From IMG/VR virus record IMGVR_UViG_3300021479_000044, positions 1-39,616 of that record: DNA of 39,616 bases, one strand, 5' to 3'. Below the pieces are notes generated by a model. That model was not told the DNA's origin. It did not search any database and saw only the letters and a program-made list of their open reading frames with translations. The DNA comes from a virus. Positions 3,001 through 34,387 of this stretch are shown here, in pieces. The translations under genes were made by a program, and so were the position numbers. The first letter of the stretch is position 1. The number at the start of each line of letters is the position of its first letter.

Positions 3001-4158
3001 GCGCCGTCGTTCGCGACGGTGAGCAGCACCGGCCTGGTGACCGGCGTCGCGGCCGGCACGCTGAACATCAGCGCGAGCCTGGGCAGCATCCATTCGCCGA
3101 CCGATGCGCTGACCATCACCGGATCGCCGCCGCTCGCGACCGGCAATATTTCGGGCGCGACCACGAATCTGTTCGTGACCGTGAGCATGGTCGATGGCAT
3201 GAGTGGGCCGGTCTACACCTACTTCGATTCGACCGACGGCGTGACCTGGGCCAATCGCGGTGTGCCGACCGAGAGTCAGTTCCCCGGCACGCACCTGACC
3301 TCGCTCGCGCTGCTCTCCGGCCACTGGTACGCCAATCAGAACGCCACCGGGTGGTTCTGGAAATCGGGCGACGCCAACTGGTACGACACGCCCTGGACCG
3401 GGCACCAGCTGACGGTGCTGCCGACCGCGAGCGTCTCGGGCGGCTTCGACTTCCCGATTGTGCGTTACCTCAACGGCCAATGGGTGTCGTGGACCAGCGC
3501 GGGCCTGAACTACGAACCGATCGTCACCAGCGCAGACTATGTGACCTGGACCGACAAGGCCGCGCCCGCAGGCGTGCCGCACACCAGCACCGACTTCGTG
3601 GGCTACGCCGACCTCGTGTGGGACGCGACGCATGGCCGCTATCTCGCGTTCGCGATTGAAACGAACTCGGGCTCCGAGAGCGCGCGGCTGTACCACTCGA
3701 CCGACCTGGTGACGTTCTCCGAGATCGACGCATTCAACACGGCCGCGCTCGCCGGGCCGGTGGGGATCTCCGCCGTGGCGCAGAGCGGCGCGGATCTGAT
3801 CGCGGTCGGCTTCGGCACGGTCGCCGGTGTCAAGACGCCGATGATTTTGTATTCGGCGGATTCGGGCCTGACCTGGGCGCGCAGCGCGACCAGCTACCCG
3901 GGCTCGATCACCAACGGCCTCGCGGGCGCGGTGTTCGATGGGACGGATTTTGTCGTGACCGGCACGCAGCAGTTCGGGCACTCATCCGACGGCGGCGCGA
4001 CCTGGACCTGGAATGACACGGGCGTCGCGCTCGATTATCAGATGGTCACCAACGGCGCGGGCGCGATCGTCGTGCAGTCGATCGGCAGCTCGGTCGCGGC
4101 CGACGTGCAAACCTCCACCGATCACGGCGCAACGTTCGCGTCTAACTTTGTTCCATAG
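1..4158 (+). CDS. Tail tip / host-specificity protein (3' part; 5' part at 39120-39616)
   Basis: This is the C-terminal, about 1385-codon, part of the large tail-tip protein. The frame is open from base 1, so the ATG at 31 is not the true start; the start lies at 39120. The region up to about nt 2850 resembles the GTA-type tip protein (TIM-barrel-like and phage-tail domains), including the conserved stretch around RLLRGRRGTE (nt 2296-2325). An Ig-like BIg2 domain follows (about nt 2860-3120). From about 3140 to the end there are repeated sialidase/BNR-like blades with the pattern SxDxGxTW (SADSGLTW, SSDGGATW, STDHGATF). The last two parts are probably carbohydrate- or receptor-binding extensions exposed at the tail tip. 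The gene follows an NlpC/P60 gene across the contig ends, as in GTA tail modules. The role is inferred from domain look and gene order. Confidence 0.85.
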   Translation, partial: TQLADPTIESVLGMGNVPAWRGLSYIVYPNRLLQTGQAWRHPTFRFEVTAGGTGDCETVTEYSNDVLYPWNSDGTPDTRGGCRFRIIGVDVHAPAYDASIWGGVDYPTLAGALAVGSAQYGGGYEVLYSYGLPFGDGTGGSSLVGGGAAPGGNGGLAIAAQYHTPDPNETELHFNWCSPTDGIFNAPLGPSSVFATPGARFANGSAMYLITGIVNTGYPMPPPATVSPWCTTGGNEAYGYPYWWFQSGDLVINAYRTPAAPPPPCAGLTRWVVDSDYAVQSDGTLVRCTDAWVRDTNNYWVLQVYNAGGANEAIVTCKYPLNPCIPQFDPRATDAAFWEAGYAVAVASGAMPPGMTFNPAGGDTCYPKLQNFAYKIDRTICTGTAAGATVASIITAVCARAGLLTVDVADMASVSVLGYSVSAITSASAIIAPLRSVGFFDAIESQGQMHFFARGKPVVATLTTDDIGAYEETGNTVPPPSVVAVRAQDEDLPRSIRFKYKAVSRDYQDDEQDSQFRLATKAVNDVDVAVPLCMGDVQAAQCAEVLWADAWAARTSYQIAVDQSWLALDCADCIAVPVDGVIQRMRIVSDTISSGVLRKLSCVRDDAGAYISFAVPSVPQVQPQKLSFIGPATFELLDLPALVDADSDPGFYVAAQRQSGGGQWNGAMIYRSLDGGATWVELFAATNEATLGTLNAVVPASESYDWDTATTIAVNVANSTVTFESRTDDAVIAGANAAAMGADGRWEVVQFATATQVSSTQWHLSRLLRGRRGTEHVMGSSVIGDKFVLLSTGDLERVILESSQIGTALQYKAVALGAPYASGIVQTFAGHAQALVPFSPVELAATKQLNGDLVLTWIRRGRLGRTLMSGVDIPLSEATEAYSIDILSGSSPETVKRTIAATAQTATYTHAQQVTDFGTPPAPNIRIAVYQLSAIVGRGTPAIQTLTIGGALVPSLVSIAVTNPGSSSLTAAATRQFSATGTYSDASTADITSTVTWLSSAPSFATVSSTGLVTGVAAGTLNISASLGSIHSPTDALTITGSPPLATGNISGATTNLFVTVSMVDGMSGPVYTYFDSTDGVTWANRGVPTESQFPGTHLTSLALLSGHWYANQNATGWFWKSGDANWYDTPWTGHQLTVLPTASVSGGFDFPIVRYLNGQWVSWTSAGLNYEPIVTSADYVTWTDKAAPAGVPHTSTDFVGYADLVWDATHGRYLAFAIETNSGSESARLYHSTDLVTFSEIDAFNTAALAGPVGISAVAQSGADLIAVGFGTVAGVKTPMILYSADSGLTWARSATSYPGSITNGLAGAVFDGTDFVVTGTQQFGHSSDGGATWTWNDTGVALDYQMVTNGAGAIVVQSIGSSVAADVQTSTDHGATFASNFVP

Positions 4159-4166
4159 GGATACCC

Positions 4167-5063
4167 ATGCCGACAGAAACACCGAACCTGCTGCTCAAGT
4201 ACCTGGTGCCCTCGCAGAGCCAGCCAGAAGTTCCGGTCAATGATGCGTGGGACAAAATCGACGCGGCGGTGCATGCGCTCGGCGCGCCGGGCGGCGCACC
4301 GCTCACGGTGGGCACGGTCGCGAACGTCACGCAGATGAACATCACTGGCGCGACGGTCACCAGCGGCGGCACCGGGGTGGCGGACGTTGCAATCACCGGC
4401 GGCGGTGGTGGCGGCGGCGGTGGTGGTGGTGGTGTGCAGCTGATCGGTGATGTAGCACTGTCGCAATTACCGCACCTGTACTGGCGCATCAACATTACGG
4501 CTTCGGCGTTCGGCGGCAACACCGGGTTCGCCGAGATCTCAATGGCCGATACGAGCGGCGGCTCGAATCTGTGCACCGGCGGCACGCCGACCGCGATCGG
4601 TTCGGATTCCGGATACGGACCCGCGATGGCGCTCGACGGCAACGGGGCGACCAGTTGGAACTATGCGTCGACGACGGGATGGTGGCAGTATCTATTCGCC
4701 ACCGCTGTACAAATCACGCAGGTCAAAATCACGGCGCGCACCGATGCGCCGACGACCTCGCCGAGTTCCTTTCAACTCGAATTTTCCGACGACGGCGTGT
4801 CTTTCACACCGCTGCAGACTTTCGGCGCAACGCTGCCGTGGACGGCTGGAGAATTGCAGACCTTCACGGTCGCGAGCGTTTCCATCGGCGGCGCAAAAGT
4901 GTCGGGCGCATCGACCGTCGCCGGATTGCCAGGCTCGCCGACCGCGGGCGATCGCGCGTTCGTGACCGACGCGACAGCCACAACGTTCCTCTCGATCGTC
5001 GCGGGCGGCGGCGCAGACAACGTGCCGGTGGTGTATGACGGGACCCATTGGGTGATCGGCTAG
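4167..5063 (+). CDS. Putative receptor-binding tail protein with Gly linker and discoidin-like domain
   Basis: 298 aa, starting 8 bases after the tail-tip gene. The N-terminus (NLLLKYLVPSQSQPEVPVND, about residues 7-26) resembles the attachment segment of DUF2793-type tail proteins. It is followed by a run of 12 glycines (nt 4398-4433). Residues about 125-235 look like an F5/8 type C (discoidin, galactose-binding) fold: ALDGNGATSWNY, then WWQYLF and FQLEFSDDGVSF. The C-terminal end (GDRAFVTDATATTF, then VPVVYDGTHWVIG) is a tail-fibre tip motif common in phages. It probably binds a surface glycan. Position directly downstream of the tip protein and upstream of lysis genes supports a tail-fibre role. 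No chaperone gene is visible. Confidence 0.7.
   Translation: MPTETPNLLLKYLVPSQSQPEVPVNDAWDKIDAAVHALGAPGGAPLTVGTVANVTQMNITGATVTSGGTGVADVAITGGGGGGGGGGGGVQLIGDVALSQLPHLYWRINITASAFGGNTGFAEISMADTSGGSNLCTGGTPTAIGSDSGYGPAMALDGNGATSWNYASTTGWWQYLFATAVQITQVKITARTDAPTTSPSSFQLEFSDDGVSFTPLQTFGATLPWTAGELQTFTVASVSIGGAKVSGASTVAGLPGSPTAGDRAFVTDATATTFLSIVAGGGADNVPVVYDGTHWVIG
4398..4433 (+). repeat. (GGN)12 polyglycine tract inside the tail-fibre gene
   Basis: Twelve consecutive glycine codons (GGC/GGT) encode an uninterrupted Gly12 linker between the N-terminal attachment segment and the putative sugar-binding domain. The unit is 3 bp, so slippage would change linker length without breaking the frame. Confidence 0.9.
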
Positions 5064-5866: not shown

Positions 5867-6165
5867 CCAAACAGGACTGGCTCGACGGGGCGGAAGTGTT
5901 CGACAGCTGGCGTGTCGTTCCCCGTCTCATCGTCTTCATTTACCTGACTTTGTTGGTCTGGCTGACCACCTACTTCGCGGTCAAGTTCTTCGACATCTCG
6001 GCGGCCGAACGCAACACCCAGCTAACCGCCTTTGCATCAATGCTGCTCACAGTGGCGTATGGTGCCTTTGGTTGGATCTACAAAATCTATGGGAACACCG
6101 GCCGCGATTGGGATGCGGCTGTGCGACCGCCGGTGGCGGTCACGCAGATCAACACCGCGACGTGA
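5863..6165 (+). CDS. Two-helix membrane protein of the lysis cassette, candidate holin
   Basis: 100 aa. The GTG start overlaps the endolysin stop (GTGA). Two hydrophobic segments are visible, about residues 20-42 (VVPRLIVFIYLTLLVWLTTY) and 54-74 (ASMLLTVAYGAFGWIYKIYG), separated by a short polar loop. The C-terminal tail is polar. Two helices next to an endolysin fit a class II holin. With the upstream one-helix protein it could form a holin/antiholin pair, but which one makes the lesion cannot be told from sequence. Confidence 0.6.
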   Translation: MTKQDWLDGAEVFDSWRVVPRLIVFIYLTLLVWLTTYFAVKFFDISAAERNTQLTAFASMLLTVAYGAFGWIYKIYGNTGRDWDAAVRPPVAVTQINTAT

Positions 6166-6169
6166 CCAC

Positions 6170-6580
6170 GTGGCAAAGCTCAATCGGTTTCCGACCAGCG
6201 CCGAGATGCGCGCGATGCGCGAACGCTGGGACCGCGAGGACGCCGACGACGTTCCGCTGAAGGATTTCGACACAACGCTCACCAGCACGATCGAGGGCAC
6301 GATCAATCAGCTGGTGAGTTTCAAGGGGCAGGGCGCGCCGTCCGTGGAGCGCGACAGCCTGCAGGCCCAGGCGCTCACGCAGCTGACAGGCGAAATCGTC
6401 AAGCTGCGCGAGGCGCACGCAGCCCTCGCCACCACGGTGAACCTGAAGGCCTCGAAGCAGGCGTTCATCCGATTCGAAGCCGCGCTCGCGGCCAAAGTGG
6501 ACAAGCGCATCGACAACATTTTCAAACTGGTCGCTGCACTCGGGGTGGTCCTCGGCGTGCTGATCGCGATCAAGAGGTAA
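6170..6580 (+). CDS. Coiled-coil protein with C-terminal membrane anchor
   Basis: 136 aa from the GTG at 6170, which lies just after the previous stop; an ATG at 6206 is an alternative. The N-terminal 110 residues are charged and helical (RDSLQAQALTQLTGEIVKLR, then KVDKRIDNIFK). The last 18 residues are hydrophobic (LVAALGVVLGVLIAIKR), a tail-anchored layout. This coiled coil plus C-terminal helix resembles XhlA-type lysis-associated proteins in architecture only; I saw no clear sequence match. It sits between a holin candidate and the spanins. Confidence 0.55.
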   Translation: MAKLNRFPTSAEMRAMRERWDREDADDVPLKDFDTTLTSTIEGTINQLVSFKGQGAPSVERDSLQAQALTQLTGEIVKLREAHAALATTVNLKASKQAFIRFEAALAAKVDKRIDNIFKLVAALGVVLGVLIAIKR

Positions 6581-26765: not shown

Positions 26766-28115
26766 ATGAACATTCGAACCATGCGCCGCATCATCACGCG
26801 CGGCGTGATTGATATGGCAACGTCCCGGATCCTGGAATCCGAGGGCTATCTGTACTCAGGTCCGCTCGCGCTCGCCGACGGGCCGACCAGCGAAGCGCTG
26901 CGGCTCGCGATCAAAGCCGCGATCGAGGAGCACGGCAAAAAGGTAGCCGACGTCATGAAGGAGGTACAGGACAGCGTGAAAGCCAACGGCACCGTCGCCG
27001 AGGGCCTGAAATCTGCCGTCGCCAAACTCAACGAAGACGGCGCGAAGATGATCGCCGAGCACGAAAAATTGAAGGCGGAGAAGGCCGCGAACGACCAGCG
27101 CATCCTCGACCTCGAGCAGAAGATCCTGACGCGCGGCGGCCTCGGCGGTCCCGGCGGCGCGCAGAAGACGCTCGGCCAGCAGGTGATCGAGTCGGAGCAG
27201 TGGAAGGAGTTCGCGAAGCGCGCTGGCTCGCTGCGCTGTTCGATGATGCCGTTCAAGCTCAAGAACATCACCACCGTCACCGGCGGCGCGGGCGCGTTCC
27301 CTGAGTTCCTGCCGACTCCGGTCATTCCGCCGTTCCAGCCGCTGGTGATTCGCGATCTGCTGGACCACGGCACGACCGAGAGCAACCTGATCGAGTGGGT
27401 GAAGGAGACTCTGTTCACCAACGCCGCGGCGCCGGTCTCCGAGGGTGCGTTGAAGCCGCAGTCGGACATCACCTACGATCGTGTCAGCATTCCGGTGCGC
27501 ACCATCGCGCACTGGATCAAGGCCTCGAAGCAGATCCTCGCCGACTTCAAACAGCTGATGACGCTCATCGACGGGCGCATGAATTTCGGTTTGAAGCTGG
27601 TGGAGGAACGGCAAATTCTGTACGGAGATGGCACCGGCGACAACCTGCTCGGACTGATCCCGCAGGCCACGGCCTATTCGAGCGCGTTTCATCGGCCAAC
27701 CGACACGCGCATCGACGTGATCCGCCACGCGATGCTGCAGGTGAACCTGGCGTTCTACCCGTCGACCGGGATCGCCATGAGCCCGACCGACTGGCACGAC
27801 CTCGAGCTCACCAAGGACAGCCTGGGGCGCTACATGATCGCCAACCCCACGCAATCGACGCCGGGCATGTTGTGGGGGCTGCCGGTGGCGCAGGCCTACA
27901 GCATGGCACCGGGCGAATTCCTGGTGGGAGCGCTGAAGCTCGCGTGCACCCTCTTCGATCGCGAAGAGGCGCAGCTGCTGGTCAGCAATGAGGACCAGGA
28001 CAACTTCGTGCGCAACTTGGTCACCGTGCTCGAGGAGGAACGGATCGCGCTCGCGGTCTCGCGGCCGCAGGCGATCATCCACGGCTTCATCCCGTCGGGC
28101 GAGTCCACGCACTAA
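26766..28115 (+). CDS. Major capsid protein (HK97 fold)
   Basis: 449 aa from ATG at 26766, with AGGAGA about 8 bases upstream. The N-terminal about 125 residues are coiled-coil-like (delta/scaffold domain: AIEEHGKKVADVMKEVQDSV). The rest is the HK97 fold: TPVIPPFQPLVIRDLLDHGT, KPQSDITYDRVSIPVRTIAH, LADFKQLMTLIDGRM, and GDGTGDNLLGLIPQA. The protease upstream should cleave near residues 125-145. A hairpin terminator follows 20 bases after its stop. Confidence 0.95.
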   Translation: MNIRTMRRIITRGVIDMATSRILESEGYLYSGPLALADGPTSEALRLAIKAAIEEHGKKVADVMKEVQDSVKANGTVAEGLKSAVAKLNEDGAKMIAEHEKLKAEKAANDQRILDLEQKILTRGGLGGPGGAQKTLGQQVIESEQWKEFAKRAGSLRCSMMPFKLKNITTVTGGAGAFPEFLPTPVIPPFQPLVIRDLLDHGTTESNLIEWVKETLFTNAAAPVSEGALKPQSDITYDRVSIPVRTIAHWIKASKQILADFKQLMTLIDGRMNFGLKLVEERQILYGDGTGDNLLGLIPQATAYSSAFHRPTDTRIDVIRHAMLQVNLAFYPSTGIAMSPTDWHDLELTKDSLGRYMIANPTQSTPGMLWGLPVAQAYSMAPGEFLVGALKLACTLFDREEAQLLVSNEDQDNFVRNLVTVLEEERIALAVSRPQAIIHGFIPSGESTH

Positions 28116-28135
28116 CCGTAGTCGGGTGAAGGACA

Positions 28136-28167
28136 TTGGTCGGGGGACACCCACCCCGGCCAATTTT
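28136..28167 (+). terminator. Hairpin terminator directly after the capsid gene
   Basis: TTGGTCGGGG (28136-28145) pairs with CCCCGGCCAA (28154-28163) over ten bases with one G-U pair and an 8-base loop, followed by four T's. The short T run suggests partial termination, which would lower expression of downstream genes relative to capsid. Confidence 0.65.
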
Positions 28168-28191: not shown

Positions 28192-28524
28192 ATGCCACAG
28201 TGCAAAGCGTTGAAGACCTTCGACAGCCGCTACGGCAAGGTCCGCTTGGGCGAGACGTTCGCGGCCGAGCAGGGCTACGCCGTTGATCTCAAGAGCAATG
28301 GCCTGGTCGAGATCCTGGGCGAGAAAAAGGCCGATCGCGAGCCGCAGCGAACTCAAGCCTTCGTCGGCGCGCCGCTCAACAAAGGCACGGACACGCTGGT
28401 GGGAAAAGGTACGGCGGACCCGTCGGGCGCTGGCGGGGGGAAACCGTTTGCGTCATCGCGAGCGGACCCAGCCTCACGCCGGGAGATTGCGCCGCCGTCC
28501 AAGCCGCCCAGTGCAAAACGATAG
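28192..28524 (+). CDS. Small post-capsid protein; frame ends out of register with the next gene
   Basis: 110 aa as an open frame. Residues 1-45 (KALKTFDSRYGKVRLGETF, then YAVDLKSNGLVEILGEK) look like a small beta domain found after phage capsid genes. A polar linker follows. After residue 83 (GAGGG, nt 28440) the sequence becomes Ser/Arg/Pro-rich and overlaps a conserved sequence in another frame, so the true C-terminus is doubtful. ATG preceded by CTGGAGAACC. Confidence 0.6.
   Translation: MPQCKALKTFDSRYGKVRLGETFAAEQGYAVDLKSNGLVEILGEKKADREPQRTQAFVGAPLNKGTDTLVGKGTADPSGAGGGKPFASSRADPASRREIAPPSKPPSAKR
28435..28443 (+). other. G6A3 tract at a frame junction
   Basis: The sequence GGCGGGGGGAAACCG lies where the reading frame of the 28192 gene must move by -1 (or gain one G) to continue into the conserved MptE-like frame that begins ETVCVIASGPSL at 28440. 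It may be a programmed slippage site or a base-count error in the run. Confidence 0.5.
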
Positions 28525-28562
28525 CCGTCAACACGAGCTTCCGCCTGGCCCTCTGGGCCGAC

Positions 28563-29036
28563 GTGCTGTACGCGTGTGACGACGCTTGGTGGATCGCCTA
28601 CTTCCCCGAGGTCGCCCGCGCCTTCCACGGCGAGCTGTGGACCATCAACCAAAACGCGCGCGATCGCTTCGACCTCAACTGGCTCCTCGGACTCGACAAA
28701 GCCGGCCTGTCGCGCGCTACGGGCGTCATCCACCAGGGCCAAAACTCGGGCTATCAAGCTGTCAGTCTGGCCCATCTATTCGGCGCTGCCCGAATCCTAC
28801 TGCTCGGTTTTGATTTCGGCCGCACGCACGGCCGCGCTCACTGGCACCGCGACCATCCCCCGGGTATGGGCAACGGCGGATCGTTTGCGGCCTGGATTGC
28901 GCACATGAACGTGCTCGCCGCCGAGCTCGCGGCCGCCGGCGTCGAGGTCATCAACTGCAGTCGCTACACCGCGCTGACCTGTTTCCCGCGCATGTCGATC
29001 GAGGAGGCCCTGTGCAAATCATCTTGTCGCCCTTGA
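28563..29036 (+). CDS. MptE/DUF115-like glycosyl-modification protein (conserved frame extends to 28440)
   Basis: The first start codon in frame is GTG at 28563, but conserved sequence continues upstream to 28440 without any ATG, GTG or TTG: VCVIASGPSLTPGDCAAV, then KTIAVNTSFRLALWADVLY. With it the protein is about 198 aa. The start motif ASGPSL and ADVLYACDDAWW are typical of phage proteins related to the MptE/DUF115 group, which often lie with glycosyltransferases. Later motifs: NSGYQAVSLAHLFGA, LLLGFDFG, HWHRDHPPGMGN. So it is probably fused to, or frameshifted from, the 28192 gene. Part of a cassette of sugar-transfer-like genes to 31240. Confidence 0.65.
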   Translation: MLYACDDAWWIAYFPEVARAFHGELWTINQNARDRFDLNWLLGLDKAGLSRATGVIHQGQNSGYQAVSLAHLFGAARILLLGFDFGRTHGRAHWHRDHPPGMGNGGSFAAWIAHMNVLAAELAAAGVEVINCSRYTALTCFPRMSIEEALCKSSCRP

Positions 29037-29239
29037 CGCTGCTGGCCTGCGTGGCGCTCGGCATCGCGCTCGGCAAACGACGCCCGGCCGACCCGCTCGA
29101 GCACGGCTTCGATACGATCGTGATGCGGATCGACCTCGGGCGCGTGTTCGTGTTTCGGATCTGGCTCGGCCGCGCGTTGATGAAGCTCTCGCTGTGGGTG
29201 ATCGGCGGCCGCGCGATCGTCCTCGAGTTCCCGGATTAA
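29012..29239 (+). CDS. Small membrane-associated protein of the glycosyltransferase cassette
   Basis: 75 aa from GTG at 29012, overlapping the upstream gene by 25 bases. An N-terminal hydrophobic helix (ILSPLTLLACVALGIALG) and a less hydrophobic second stretch (VFVFRIWLGRALMKLSLWVI). Could anchor the cassette's enzymes; not recognised. Confidence 0.5.
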   Translation: MQIILSPLTLLACVALGIALGKRRPADPLEHGFDTIVMRIDLGRVFVFRIWLGRALMKLSLWVIGGRAIVLEFPD

Positions 29240-29244
29240 TTGCA

Positions 29245-29871
29245 ATGCAAATAATCCCGACGCGCGGCCGGCCCTCTCTGATGCAGCGTTTTTTCTCGCT
29301 GGGCCAGCCGCAGGAACCCGGTGTGGTCGTGATCGACTCGGACCAGCTGGTGCTGTACCAGAGCCTGAAAATTCCGCGCAACTGGGAGCGGCTGATCGTG
29401 CCGCCGATGCTCGGCTTCGTGGCGAAGACCAATCGCGCGTTCGCCAAATATCCCGACCGCGCCTGGTACGCGTTCGGCGGCGACGATGCGATCGGCCGCA
29501 CGCCCTACTGGGACAGCCAACTCGCGACGCAAGCGCTCAAGGGCAAAATCGCCTGGGGCAATGACCTGATGGCCGGGCACTGCACGCACCCGTTCATCCC
29601 CGGAGACCTGGTGCGCGCGATGGGCTGGGTCTGCCACCCGGCCTTCAAACACCTGTACACCGATTCGATTTGGGAGCACATCGCGATCAAGGTCGGGATC
29701 GACTGCTACTGCCCGGAGATCATTCAAGAGGCGCACCACTACACGAACGGCAAACTGGAGCGCGATCGCACCAGCTTGGAACGCATGGAGCAGCTCGACG
29801 CAGCGACCTTCAAAACCATCGACCTCGAGGATCTCGAGACGAGGGCGCGGGCGTGCGTCTCCTCGCGGTGA
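29245..29871 (+). CDS. Putative glycosyltransferase
   Basis: 208 aa from ATG at 29245. IIPTRGRP at the N-terminus (compare the start of GT-A family proteins), VVIDSDQ at about 28-34, and AWYAFGGDDAIGRTPYWDSQ at about 74-93 with a GDD triplet resembling the metal-binding DxD of GT-A enzymes. Later CHPAFKHLYTDSIWEHIAIK. Overlaps the next gene by 19 bases. Donor and acceptor unknown. Confidence 0.6.
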   Translation: MQIIPTRGRPSLMQRFFSLGQPQEPGVVVIDSDQLVLYQSLKIPRNWERLIVPPMLGFVAKTNRAFAKYPDRAWYAFGGDDAIGRTPYWDSQLATQALKGKIAWGNDLMAGHCTHPFIPGDLVRAMGWVCHPAFKHLYTDSIWEHIAIKVGIDCYCPEIIQEAHHYTNGKLERDRTSLERMEQLDAATFKTIDLEDLETRARACVSSR

Positions 29872-30599
29872 TCGCCACCTATTGCATCGCGCACCGCGAC
29901 GCGAAGCTCTCGGCGCACCTGTACGACGCGCTGATCCATACACCACCGCGGGCCGACTATCAGGCGCTCGTCTCCGTGGTCGCGCATCCGGTGCTCGCGC
30001 TGCTGGCGCCGGCCGGTGCGCTCATGAACATCTGCGGCTGGCGCAAGATCATCACGCGCGGCGAGACCTCGCACCGCACCGTCACTCCGCTGCAGTCGAT
30101 GCAGATCCGGCGTACCGACTCGGAGCCGCATCCGGGCTTCGACTTCCTGCTCTGCCTGCACGATTTTTTCCAGGTTGGCCGACGCCACAAAAACGTGCGC
30201 GAGCAGTGGAACTCGAGCCACCATCAAGAGGATTTGCGCGAGTGCCTGAACCTCGCGCTCAAGATGGGCGTGATGACACCGGGTGAGCGCAGCGCGCTCG
30301 AGGCCGAGCCGGCGCTGATCGAGGGCGGCTGTTCGATGGGCGTCTACCCGGGCGACTTCGTGCGCGCGACGCTCGAGAAAGTCTGGCCGCTGTATCAGGA
30401 GTTCGCGCGCCTGCATCGCGGGCGGTTCATGCGCTATGACCCGGTGCAACGGCGCTGCGTCGCGTTCCTGGCCGAGCGCATCGAGACCCACTTCATCCTG
30501 AAGGAATTGCGGCGACGCTATTCGATCCCGCTGCCGCGCGAACTGTTCGGCTGTCTCACCGCCTGCTGGGAAGGTCCGTGGGAAGCGGGGCGGATCTGA
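29853..30599 (+). CDS. DUF4422-like glycosyltransferase-associated protein
   Basis: 248 aa from GTG at 29853. The C-terminal half follows DUF4422 (capsule/LPS synthesis) closely: REQWNSSHHQEDLRECLNLA, then GCSMGVYPGDFVRATLEKVW, RYDPVQRRCVAFLAERIETH. The N-terminus LLAVIATYCIAHRDAKLSAH is also of this type. Proteins of this family transfer or modify sugars of surface polysaccharides. Stop and next ATG overlap (TGATG). Confidence 0.65.
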   Translation: MRLLAVIATYCIAHRDAKLSAHLYDALIHTPPRADYQALVSVVAHPVLALLAPAGALMNICGWRKIITRGETSHRTVTPLQSMQIRRTDSEPHPGFDFLLCLHDFFQVGRRHKNVREQWNSSHHQEDLRECLNLALKMGVMTPGERSALEAEPALIEGGCSMGVYPGDFVRATLEKVWPLYQEFARLHRGRFMRYDPVQRRCVAFLAERIETHFILKELRRRYSIPLPRELFGCLTACWEGPWEAGRI

Positions 30600-31240
30600 T
30601 GCGCATTTTCACGGTCCTCAAATCGGGACGCGAATATCTGCCGTTGCACGTTCGGGCCCTCAAGCGCCAGATCGAGCAGCACAGCGCAACGCCGCACGAG
30701 TTCGTCTGCCTGACCGACATCCCGGTCGCCGGCGTCGAGTGCATCCGGCTCGATCACGACTGGCCCGGCTGGTGGGCGAAGATGGAACTGTTCCGGCCGG
30801 ACCTGCGCGGCTCGATCCTGTACTTCGATCTCGACACCGTGATCACCGGCTCGATCGAGCCGCTGTGTCAGGTCGCAGGCCTCACGCTGCTCAGGGACTT
30901 CTATCGCGACGGTGCGCCGGGCCACCAGCCCGAGGGCCTGGGGTCCGGCCTCATGCTGCTCCCCGAGGCCGATCGCATGACTCCGTGGCTCTCCTTCAGC
31001 CGTAACCCCAAACTGCTCATGAATCAGTTTCCGGGCGGCGATCAGCGCTTCCTCGAGATGCACTACCAACACCGGGCGGCGCGCTGGCAGGATCTCGTCC
31101 CGGGGGTCGTCAGTTGGAAAGTGCACTGCGCGCAGCGGGGCACCGTGCCGAAGGCCGCCGCGGTCGTCTGCTTCCACGGCCAGCCGCGCCCCTGGGCCGT
31201 CCCGCGCTTCCAAAATCTGTACCAGGAAGCCGCGCCGTGA
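30599..31240 (+). CDS. Putative glycosyltransferase (GT8-like, DxD motif)
   Basis: 213 aa. MRIFTVLKSGREYLPLHVRA, EFVCLTDIPVAGVECIRL, WWAKMELFRPDLRGSILYFD followed by LDTVITG: the FDLDT is a DxD metal/nucleotide-sugar site in the right place (about residue 80). Then GLGSGLMLLP and DQRFLEMHYQ. Similar proteins occur as glycosyltransferases in phage and bacterial genomes. Last gene of the cassette; 91 bases separate it from the head-tail connector. Confidence 0.7.
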   Translation: MRIFTVLKSGREYLPLHVRALKRQIEQHSATPHEFVCLTDIPVAGVECIRLDHDWPGWWAKMELFRPDLRGSILYFDLDTVITGSIEPLCQVAGLTLLRDFYRDGAPGHQPEGLGSGLMLLPEADRMTPWLSFSRNPKLLMNQFPGGDQRFLEMHYQHRAARWQDLVPGVVSWKVHCAQRGTVPKAAAVVCFHGQPRPWAVPRFQNLYQEAAP

Positions 31241-31331: not shown

Positions 31332-31829
31332 ATGAGCAGCCCGTCGCCCCCGCCACCGTATCTGTCCTACATCACGCTGGCCGACGCCAAGGGCCAGCTG
31401 TCGATCGACGACGGCCTGACCATCCATGACGCGAAGGTCACGCGCCTGATCGGCTCGGCGATCGACTGGGCAGAGAACTTTTGCGGCCGCTCGCTCGGCC
31501 AGCTGCTCGAGCTCAACAGCCCGGGCGACTCGCCCACCACGCCGCTGCCGGAGCCGCTGGACTCGCCCCACTACACTTCGCCGCCGATGCCCGAGGGCGT
31601 GCTCGCGGTCGAGGGCTGGTCGGAGGGATGGACGCTGCAGGACTGGCAGGATTACTACAAAAACAATCCGCTGAACACGAACTATGCTGCACCGCTGCGG
31701 CGCGACATCAAGGAGGCGATCCTGCTCAAGATCGAGCAGCTGTTCGACCGCAACACCGACAACTGGGAGCTCCTTGAGACGACCTCGCAGCAGATGCTCC
31801 TGCCGTACCGCGTGGGGATGGGCGTATGA
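31332..31829 (+). CDS. Head-tail connector protein (gp6-like)
   Basis: 165 aa from ATG at 31332, chosen for GGAGG 5 bases upstream. YITLADAKGQLSIDDGLTIH, then DAKVTRLIGSAIDWAENFCG, is the N-terminal signature of HK97 gp6-like connectors; the C-terminal helix (RRDIKEAILLKIEQLFDRNT) is also present. It binds beneath the portal. A 45-residue Pro-rich insertion (PGDSPTTPLPEPLDSPHYTS) lies between the two. Confidence 0.85.
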   Translation: MSSPSPPPPYLSYITLADAKGQLSIDDGLTIHDAKVTRLIGSAIDWAENFCGRSLGQLLELNSPGDSPTTPLPEPLDSPHYTSPPMPEGVLAVEGWSEGWTLQDWQDYYKNNPLNTNYAAPLRRDIKEAILLKIEQLFDRNTDNWELLETTSQQMLLPYRVGMGV

Positions 31830-33348: not shown

Positions 33349-33786
33349 ATGACTACAGCATCTCCCTTGGAAACGCCGTTTGTCGGCGGGATTTTTTGGG
33401 CGGTCGGCGACGGCGCCTCGCCCGAAACGTTCACGCGCTACTGCGCGGTCGATGCGATGTCCGGCATCGGCTCGGCCAACTCGCTGATCGACGTGACCAC
33501 CTTCTGCTCGATGGGCGTGAAGGAATACATCGCGGGCCTGGCCGACGGCAAACAGGTGACGATCGGCGCGAACTATTTGATGGGCGACTCGATCCAGGAA
33601 GGCCTGATCCTCGACGTCGAGAACAAGGTCAAGCGTAATTTCGAGGTTCAGGTCGATGGCGTCTCGCCGTTCCGCCTGTTCCATCTGACGCTCGCCATGC
33701 TCGACTGGGAACTGGATCCGCAGGTCGCCAAGCAGAACGTCATCAAGTTCATCGGCAAAATCAGCGGCAAGATCCTGCGGTCATGA
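33349..33786 (+). CDS. Major tail tube protein
   Basis: 145 aa from ATG at 33349. Located between tail terminator and tail assembly chaperones. SLIDVTTFCSMGVKEYIAGL, then DGKQVTIGANYLMGD, the beta-sandwich pattern of siphovirus tail tube subunits (compare ..VTTFDSEGVKEFIPGL..). Forms stacked hexamers around the tape measure. Confidence 0.85.
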   Translation: MTTASPLETPFVGGIFWAVGDGASPETFTRYCAVDAMSGIGSANSLIDVTTFCSMGVKEYIAGLADGKQVTIGANYLMGDSIQEGLILDVENKVKRNFEVQVDGVSPFRLFHLTLAMLDWELDPQVAKQNVIKFIGKISGKILRS

Positions 33787-34055
33787 GTCTGCTCGAGGGC
33801 AGCGTGGAGATTCGCGGCGTCACCTACACGGTGCGCGAGATCAGCGGGCGACACATGCGCGAGGTCCGAAAGCGCTTGAAGGATTCGCCCGAGACCGTCG
33901 AGGCCTATCTCGCCTGGGCCTGCACGATCGAGCCGAAGTTCGCATCCGAATCGGTCGCCGCCGATGAATCGCACCTGGTCTTGAAGACCCTGAGCGAGAA
34001 GGCTTTCGCACTCTCGCAGGCACCTGTAGCCGAGGAGGAACCAAAAAACGACTGA
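33783..34055 (+). CDS. Tail assembly chaperone, short form (gpG-like)
   Basis: 90 aa; ATG overlaps tail tube stop. EIRGVTYTVREISGRHMREV is the common start of this family. Near the end the frame passes through A AAA AAC at 34043-34049 and stops 4 bases later (TGA 34053-34055). A fraction of ribosomes should shift -1 to make the longer gpGT form. It chaperones the tape measure protein. Confidence 0.85.
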   Translation: MSLLEGSVEIRGVTYTVREISGRHMREVRKRLKDSPETVEAYLAWACTIEPKFASESVAADESHLVLKTLSEKAFALSQAPVAEEEPKND

Positions 34056-34387
34056 CGCCTGAGCAGCTATTCGAGCACCGGCTCGCTGCGCTGCTCGGGC
34101 GTTCGTTGGGGGAACTCGATGAGCTCGGAGTCACTGAGCTCGCACGCTGGGCGCAGTATTGGATCGAGGAACCCTGGGGTAGCGTGCGCGACAACATGCA
34201 CGCGGGCCTGATTATCACGGAGCTCATGAAACCGCATCTGCCAGAGGGCGCAACGATGTCGATCGACCAGTTCATGCTCAAGTCGAAAGCCGAACTTGAC
34301 GAGGCCGCGCGCGCGCGCATCGTCGCCGCGCTCTCGGCAATGGCCGCCGCCGGTGAACGCGCCGCGCGCCGCGAGAAAAAGCCATGA
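33783..34387 (+). CDS. Tail assembly chaperone, frameshift product (gpGT-like)
   Basis: 201 aa formed by -1 frameshifting at 34043-34049 (reading CCA AAA AAC in frame 0), continuing from 34049 as KKRLTPEQLFEHRLAALLG and on to GELDELGVTELARWAQYW and ERAARREKKP. The downstream frame has no good own start; its first is a TTG at 34106 inside the homologous sequence. gpG/gpGT frameshifting is a conserved feature of siphoviruses. The stop overlaps the tape measure ATG. Confidence 0.85.
34043..34049 (+). promoter_or_regulatory. -1 ribosomal frameshift site A AAA AAC
   Basis: A perfect X XXY YYZ heptamer in the chaperone frame (..CCA AAA AAC GAC TGA), one codon before the zero-frame stop. The -1 frame continues open for 112 codons into the next ORF. 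Confidence 0.9.

Follow-up and report, generated by a model that had tools for sequence, protein, structure and literature searches.

The 39,616-base virus record IMGVR_UViG_3300021479_000044 of IMG/VR, the whole of which is the window analysed here, very probably encodes a protein made by -1 programmed ribosomal frameshifting immediately downstream of its capsid gene. A small gene (S) is predicted to give rise both to its 110-residue zero-frame product and to a fusion of 281 residues (S-D), in which the first 72 residues of S are joined to an MptE/DUF115-like domain (D) encoded in the -1 frame. Ribosomes translating S would meet the slippery heptamer G_GGA_AAA (28401-28407), where some would continue to the S stop codon and a fraction would slip back by one base and read on as RYGGPVGRWRGETVCVIASGPSLT; we infer the shift to be ribosomal in nature. 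Judged by its gene content, which includes an integrase-like gene, a terminase, a portal, a protease, an HK97 capsid, connectors and a tape measure, the window is a temperate siphovirus-like phage. In an original prediction made from the same DNA, the interval from the capsid gene (26766-28115) to the connector gene (31332-31829) was read as a simple operon of five separate glycosylation genes placed directly after a terminator. The five rightward open reading frames (ORFs) are present and packed with overlaps; gene S (28192-28524), between the hairpin and this set, had been overlooked, and the first of the five appears to be the frameshift extension of a head-region protein rather than a gene of its own.

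The D frame is open from 28287 and overlaps S in the -1 frame of S, and the conserved body of D, which includes the motif ASGPSLT, begins inside S at 28440 with ETVCVIASGPSLT. A gene start had been placed at this same position, where no start codon is possible; from the upstream stop to ASGPSLT, the D frame of the window contains no ATG, GTG, TTG, CTG or ATH codon. Relatives were gathered from viral contigs, which yielded roughly 500, from named phages and from bacterial genomes (loci designated by L numbers below), and the overlap class among them comprises 77 loci in which D lacks a near start and is read in frame -1 relative to a longer S ORF. A capsid homologue is located just upstream in 56 of the first 61 loci. 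The S protein consists of an N-terminal domain (N-domain) of 40 residues with the pattern KALKTF..RYG..R.GE.F....YA..L...GLVEI, followed by a Pro/Ala-rich linker and a tail. Because the N-domain is conserved in an alignment of 29 loci, S is considered a real gene, and the possibility that it is an inert artefact ORF is ruled out. A tblastn search with S against named phages gave no matches, a search of solved structures by sequence with the N-domain gave no useful match, and the N-domain part of a structure model of L075 is of low confidence (predicted local distance difference test, pLDDT, 52-72).

Slippery heptamers were counted in 48 representatives with less than 80% identity, in the stretch of S over which the D frame is open, those of the form X_XXY_YYZ with AAA or TTT as YYY being classed as strong. 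The S frame contains 41 strong heptamers and the two alternative frames 8 and 6; permutation of the S codons predicts 4.0 on average, with a maximum of 12 in 2000 permutations. At least one strong heptamer is found in 34 loci (3.7 expected), and the density of strong heptamers is about 16-fold lower in the remainder of the S ORF. Loci without a strong heptamer often have C_CCU or C_CCC directly before the conserved GRW. The -1 tetramers known to be active in E. coli (PMC4066793) reach a count of 22 in these loci versus 9.3 expected (maximum 18 in 3000 permutations); C_CCN with any third base is marginally enriched (P 0.02). In L108 and L126, a stop codon of the D frame is located immediately or one codon 5' of the C_CCT motif, which therefore pins the shift site of these two loci there.

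The pattern of substitutions, compared in 13 related pairs, changes along the overlap: upstream of the heptamer, the third position of S codons is affected in 237 of 455 substitutions (52%), and between the heptamer and the conserved motif, the third position of D codons in 98 of 178 (55%). By this measure, the constrained frame is switched from S to D at the proposed shift point. A shift at the run GGGGGGAAAC (28435-28444) was considered and rejected: the D frame is constrained already upstream of the run (RYGGPxGRWRG), and the run is not conserved.

Several observations weigh against frameshifting at the proposed heptamer. A downstream RNA stimulator is weakly indicated (z -2.1 in the window, mean z -0.9 in 22 loci), and no constant upstream Shine-Dalgarno-like sequence was seen. 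About 38% of the overlap loci have a tetramer only or no recognised motif, the heptamer varies in position along the Pro/Ala-rich linker, and some close relatives (L003 and L004) lack G_GGA_AAA at the position it occupies in the window, which leaves their own exact shift site unpinned. D might instead have a translation start of its own, either internal and at a non-standard codon or through reinitiation once S has ended, and D homologues located elsewhere in their genomes do carry such a start directly in front of the motif (an ATG in PAJU2, P1 pmgO and Eowyn; also L010-L014). For the overlap class this is highly improbable: most relatives resemble the window in lacking any usual start in the D frame; reinitiation would demand a long backward scan, the S stop of the window being 85 nucleotides past the anchor and well 3' of the needed start; the D-frame stops in L108 and L126 interrupt the frame at the very site of the tetramer; and neither the frame-specific heptamers nor the switch in substitution phase would be explained.

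The chance that the frame disruption is merely a sequencing error or a decaying pseudogene is negligible. The window stems from a metagenome and has a run of six G at 28435-28440, but this run has no part in the proposed shift, and the same frame relation recurs in 77 loci, where both flanks of the shift are under coding constraint; since the S-D arrangement is found in phage D3 and in prophages of isolates, an error of metagenome assembly is excluded. Transcriptional slippage, rather than slippage of the ribosome, could produce the fusion in the minority of loci that have A7 or T7 runs (L050, L051, L054, L057, L058 and L100), but the window and most other loci have mixed heptamers (GGGAAAA, CCCAAAG, CCCTTTG), which fit tandem re-pairing of tRNAs and contain no long homopolymers, so that only a very slight probability is assigned to it as the general mechanism.

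Programmed frameshifting is also predicted outside environmental sequences. Pseudomonas phage D3 (L028, 2828-3546) has the same capsid-S-D arrangement in orf6.5 and orf7, with the slip motif C_CCA_AAG. The GenBank start of orf7 is annotated 3' of the conserved ASGPSLT, leaving the database protein without its first conserved motif, which orf6.5 reaches via C_CCA_AAG. The arrangement was found likewise in isolate prophages of Solimonas fluminis, Roseicyclus, Pandoraea, Lysobacter and Halomonas. Bacterial genome contigs yielded no matches when searched with the D sequence of the window alone, and 28 loci when searched with alignment A6. The N-domain and D are encoded in a single uninterrupted ORF in L075, L084, L097, L099 and L106, and in a weaker case, L096. 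These in-frame fusions appear in more than one place among the frameshift relatives in a phylogenetic tree of D, so that selection apparently maintains the fused product. Tetraselmis viridis virus S20 (L031) has two D-family genes (3998-4720 and 5874-6551), one at the post-capsid frameshift position and the other further down, and distant D homologues are present in large-genome phages of Caulobacter, Brevundimonas and Xanthomonas (matches H54-H60).

The profile phrog_4603, annotated as alpha-2,3-sialyltransferase, covers the whole of D (1-175 of 178, 5e-53), and the D family has the near-invariant motifs ASGPSL, D..WW, NSGYQA and HWHGDHP. In the structure model of the in-frame fusion L075, D is confident, with block means mostly of 96-98. 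The best solved fold for the D-family model is that of M. jannaschii MptE/HPPK (8sd5; Foldseek probability 1.00, E 2e-4), a 6-hydroxymethylpterin diphosphokinase, and the viral structure matches of the model include MptE-like phage proteins; a search of solved structures by sequence with D gave no useful match. D differs from MptE in its own set of motifs, in a low TM-score (0.35-0.47), and in falling below the gathering cut-off of the Pfam MptE-like family (PF01973; 24.9 versus 34.6 bits, E 2e-5, over 38 residues only). DUF115 is related to the Maf flagellin transferases. From this relation and the PHROG sialyltransferase name, it is plausible that D transfers sugar to protein, and we lean slightly towards D being a sugar transferase; on the other side, D is at least as similar to MptE, a pterin diphosphokinase, as to a glycosyltransferase, and homology leaves its chemistry unfixed.

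If the fusion is made as proposed, the N-domain of S, encoded beside the capsid, may bring D to the head, or to an intermediate of head assembly, in a proportion governed by the frameshift. There D might initiate a glycan on a structural protein of the phage, as Maf transferases of the DUF115 family do on flagellin, and the glycosyltransferases encoded downstream might lengthen it. That a virion protein is the target of D is put forward only tentatively. A Gag-Pol-like arrangement, in which S and the rarer S-D would both bind the assembling head and a fixed small number of enzyme domains, built into or onto each particle, would glycosylate the capsid in place, is doubtful and on balance unlikely. 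It is a possibility, if a somewhat unlikely one, that the enzymes modify the host surface (lipopolysaccharide or capsule, in superinfection exclusion) and not the virion, which would not conflict with the frameshift. Seroconversion is a frequent role of phage glycosyltransferases, and the set includes a gene for a hydrophobic peptide. Lytic growth of P1 requires neither pmgO nor pmgQ (PMC10695390), the product being accessory there, which speaks for a host-surface target and against an essential role. Arguing for the virion, the set is located in the late head module 3' of the capsid gene, and frameshift or gene fusion ties D physically to a head-region protein.

Table 1. Features of the window from the capsid gene to the connector gene.
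Feature	Position	Strand	Evidence and remarks
HK97-type major capsid protein	26766..28115	+	Pfam Phage_capsid 2.2e-46; phrog_10 major head protein 2e-65; upstream neighbour
Hairpin 3' of capsid gene	28135..28164	+	11-bp stem, 8-nt loop, short T tail; fold z -3.5
Gene S, 110 aa, zero frame	28192..28524	+	phrog_2616 1e-4; between capsid hairpin and cassette
Candidate -1 slippery heptamer G_GGA_AAA in S reading frame	28401..28407	+	heptamer enrichment; substitution-phase test
D, predicted -1 frame extension, MptE/DUF115-like fold	28407..29036	+	phrog_4603 5e-53; C-terminal part of 281-aa S-D fusion
Hydrophobic peptide, 75 aa, probably membrane	29012..29239	+	GTG start overlaps D end; tblastn matches L002, L003, L039, L041, L045, L065
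g3, glycosyltransferase-like, GDD motif	29245..29871	+	phrog_14945 glycosyltransferase 5.3e-20
g4, uncharacterised	29868..30599	+	homologues only in few related phages: L039, L041, L116-L119
g5, GT8-like glycosyltransferase, FDLDT motif	30599..31240	+	phrog_1962 1.7e-50; same family as phage P1 pmgQ
gp6-like head-tail connector	31332..31829	+	Pfam Phage_connect_1 6.9e-5; downstream border of slot

The genes behind D occupy a variable slot (Table 1). Start-stop overlaps join g3 to g4 (GTGA, 29868-29871) and g4 to g5 (TGATG, 30597-30601), and the GDD motif predicted in g3 and the FDLDT motif predicted in g5 were both found. The proposed function in glycosylation stands insofar as g3 and g5 match PHROG glycosyltransferases (5e-20 and 2e-50) and the slot holds sugar-modifying enzymes in relatives; the simple operon that went with it is not supported. 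A DUF4422-like identity for g4 was not borne out: DUF4422 was not detected in Pfam up to E 1, and g4 has no significant family match in Pfam, PHROGs or NCBIfam. The AlphaFold model of g4 was too poor to be used (mean pLDDT 48).

The slot is empty in D3 and L006, where the connector gene is directly 3' of D, and its filling reaches about 5 kb in other relatives, with enzymes of the GT-D, GT2 and GT8 types, a weak GT9 match, FkbM and other methyltransferases, and UDP-glucose/GDP-mannose dehydrogenase. A search for the same gene order in other phages had been proposed as a check; D is constant, whereas the genes behind it vary and form no fixed cassette. These comparisons support the interpretation that the cassette is the form that a variable glycosylation island takes in the window, with the putatively frameshifted D as the fixed first element of the island. 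The dehydrogenase gene is located behind D in L005 (6619-7443), and therefore some phages may bring nucleotide-sugar synthesis in addition to transferases. Phage P1 (L032) has the gene order pmgO-pmgP-ppp-pmgQ, in which PmgO is a homologue of D, PmgP (phrog_2111) is a distant relative of PmgO, and PmgQ is a GT8-like protein of phrog_1962, like g5; P1 thus has a related set for sugar modification that encloses a phosphatase gene. Unlike the D of the window, pmgO begins at an ATG of its own and lacks an overlap of the S-D kind.

Frameshifting by -1 in phage structural genes is well established, in tail chaperones and in some capsid proteins (PMC5009743). The S-D arrangement resembles the G/GT genes of phage lambda in that a small gene of a late structural module contains an in-frame X_XXY_YYZ heptamer and would yield a short product and a -1 extended one. 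It differs in location, between the capsid and connector genes rather than upstream of the tape measure gene, and in the nature of the extension, a globular MptE/DUF115-like domain of enzyme type instead of the tail-chaperone T domain. The capsids of Lactobacillus phage A2 and phage T3 also involve a -1 frameshift in the head module and an extended minor form (PMC5009743), but there the capsid protein itself gains an Ig-like domain, whereas here a separate small post-capsid gene would gain an enzyme-like domain. In the open-access literature searched, supplements and the three new prophage clusters mentioned by Sharma et al. 2014 excepted, no description was found of frameshifting in the gene behind the capsid or of an extension of MptE/DUF115 type, and the S-D frameshift family appears to be undescribed so far. 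The opinion that such a gene set is not well described is correct in part, members of the same families being carried by P1 (pmgO, pmgQ) and D3 (orf7); in D3, unlike in the window, the connector gene comes next after D with no cassette in between, and the predicted frameshift of D3 is unannotated.

The recoding has apparently been missed in well-studied phages such as D3, sequenced long ago, as well as in numerous prophages and environmental phages, and gene callers truncate or drop the start of the enzyme, leaving broken proteins in databases. If the proposal is true, a tailed phage ties an enzyme-like domain to a head-region protein at a ratio set by the ribosome, and S-D flags, within the head module, a variable glycosylation island open to mining and testing.

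The terminator predicted after the capsid gene corresponds to a strong hairpin (28135-28164, z -3.5), but its U-tract is short, and a terminator scan of the window did not list it. Hairpins at the same post-capsid place have T-rich tails in L062, L064, L067 and D3. The hairpin is possibly an attenuating terminator that lowers the expression of the downstream genes. Elsewhere in the window, a frameshift of the lambda tail assembly chaperone type is apparently present at 33783-34387: the heptamer A_AAA_AAC at 34043 is near the end of an ORF (33783-34055), and a long -1 ORF continues from there towards the tape measure gene.

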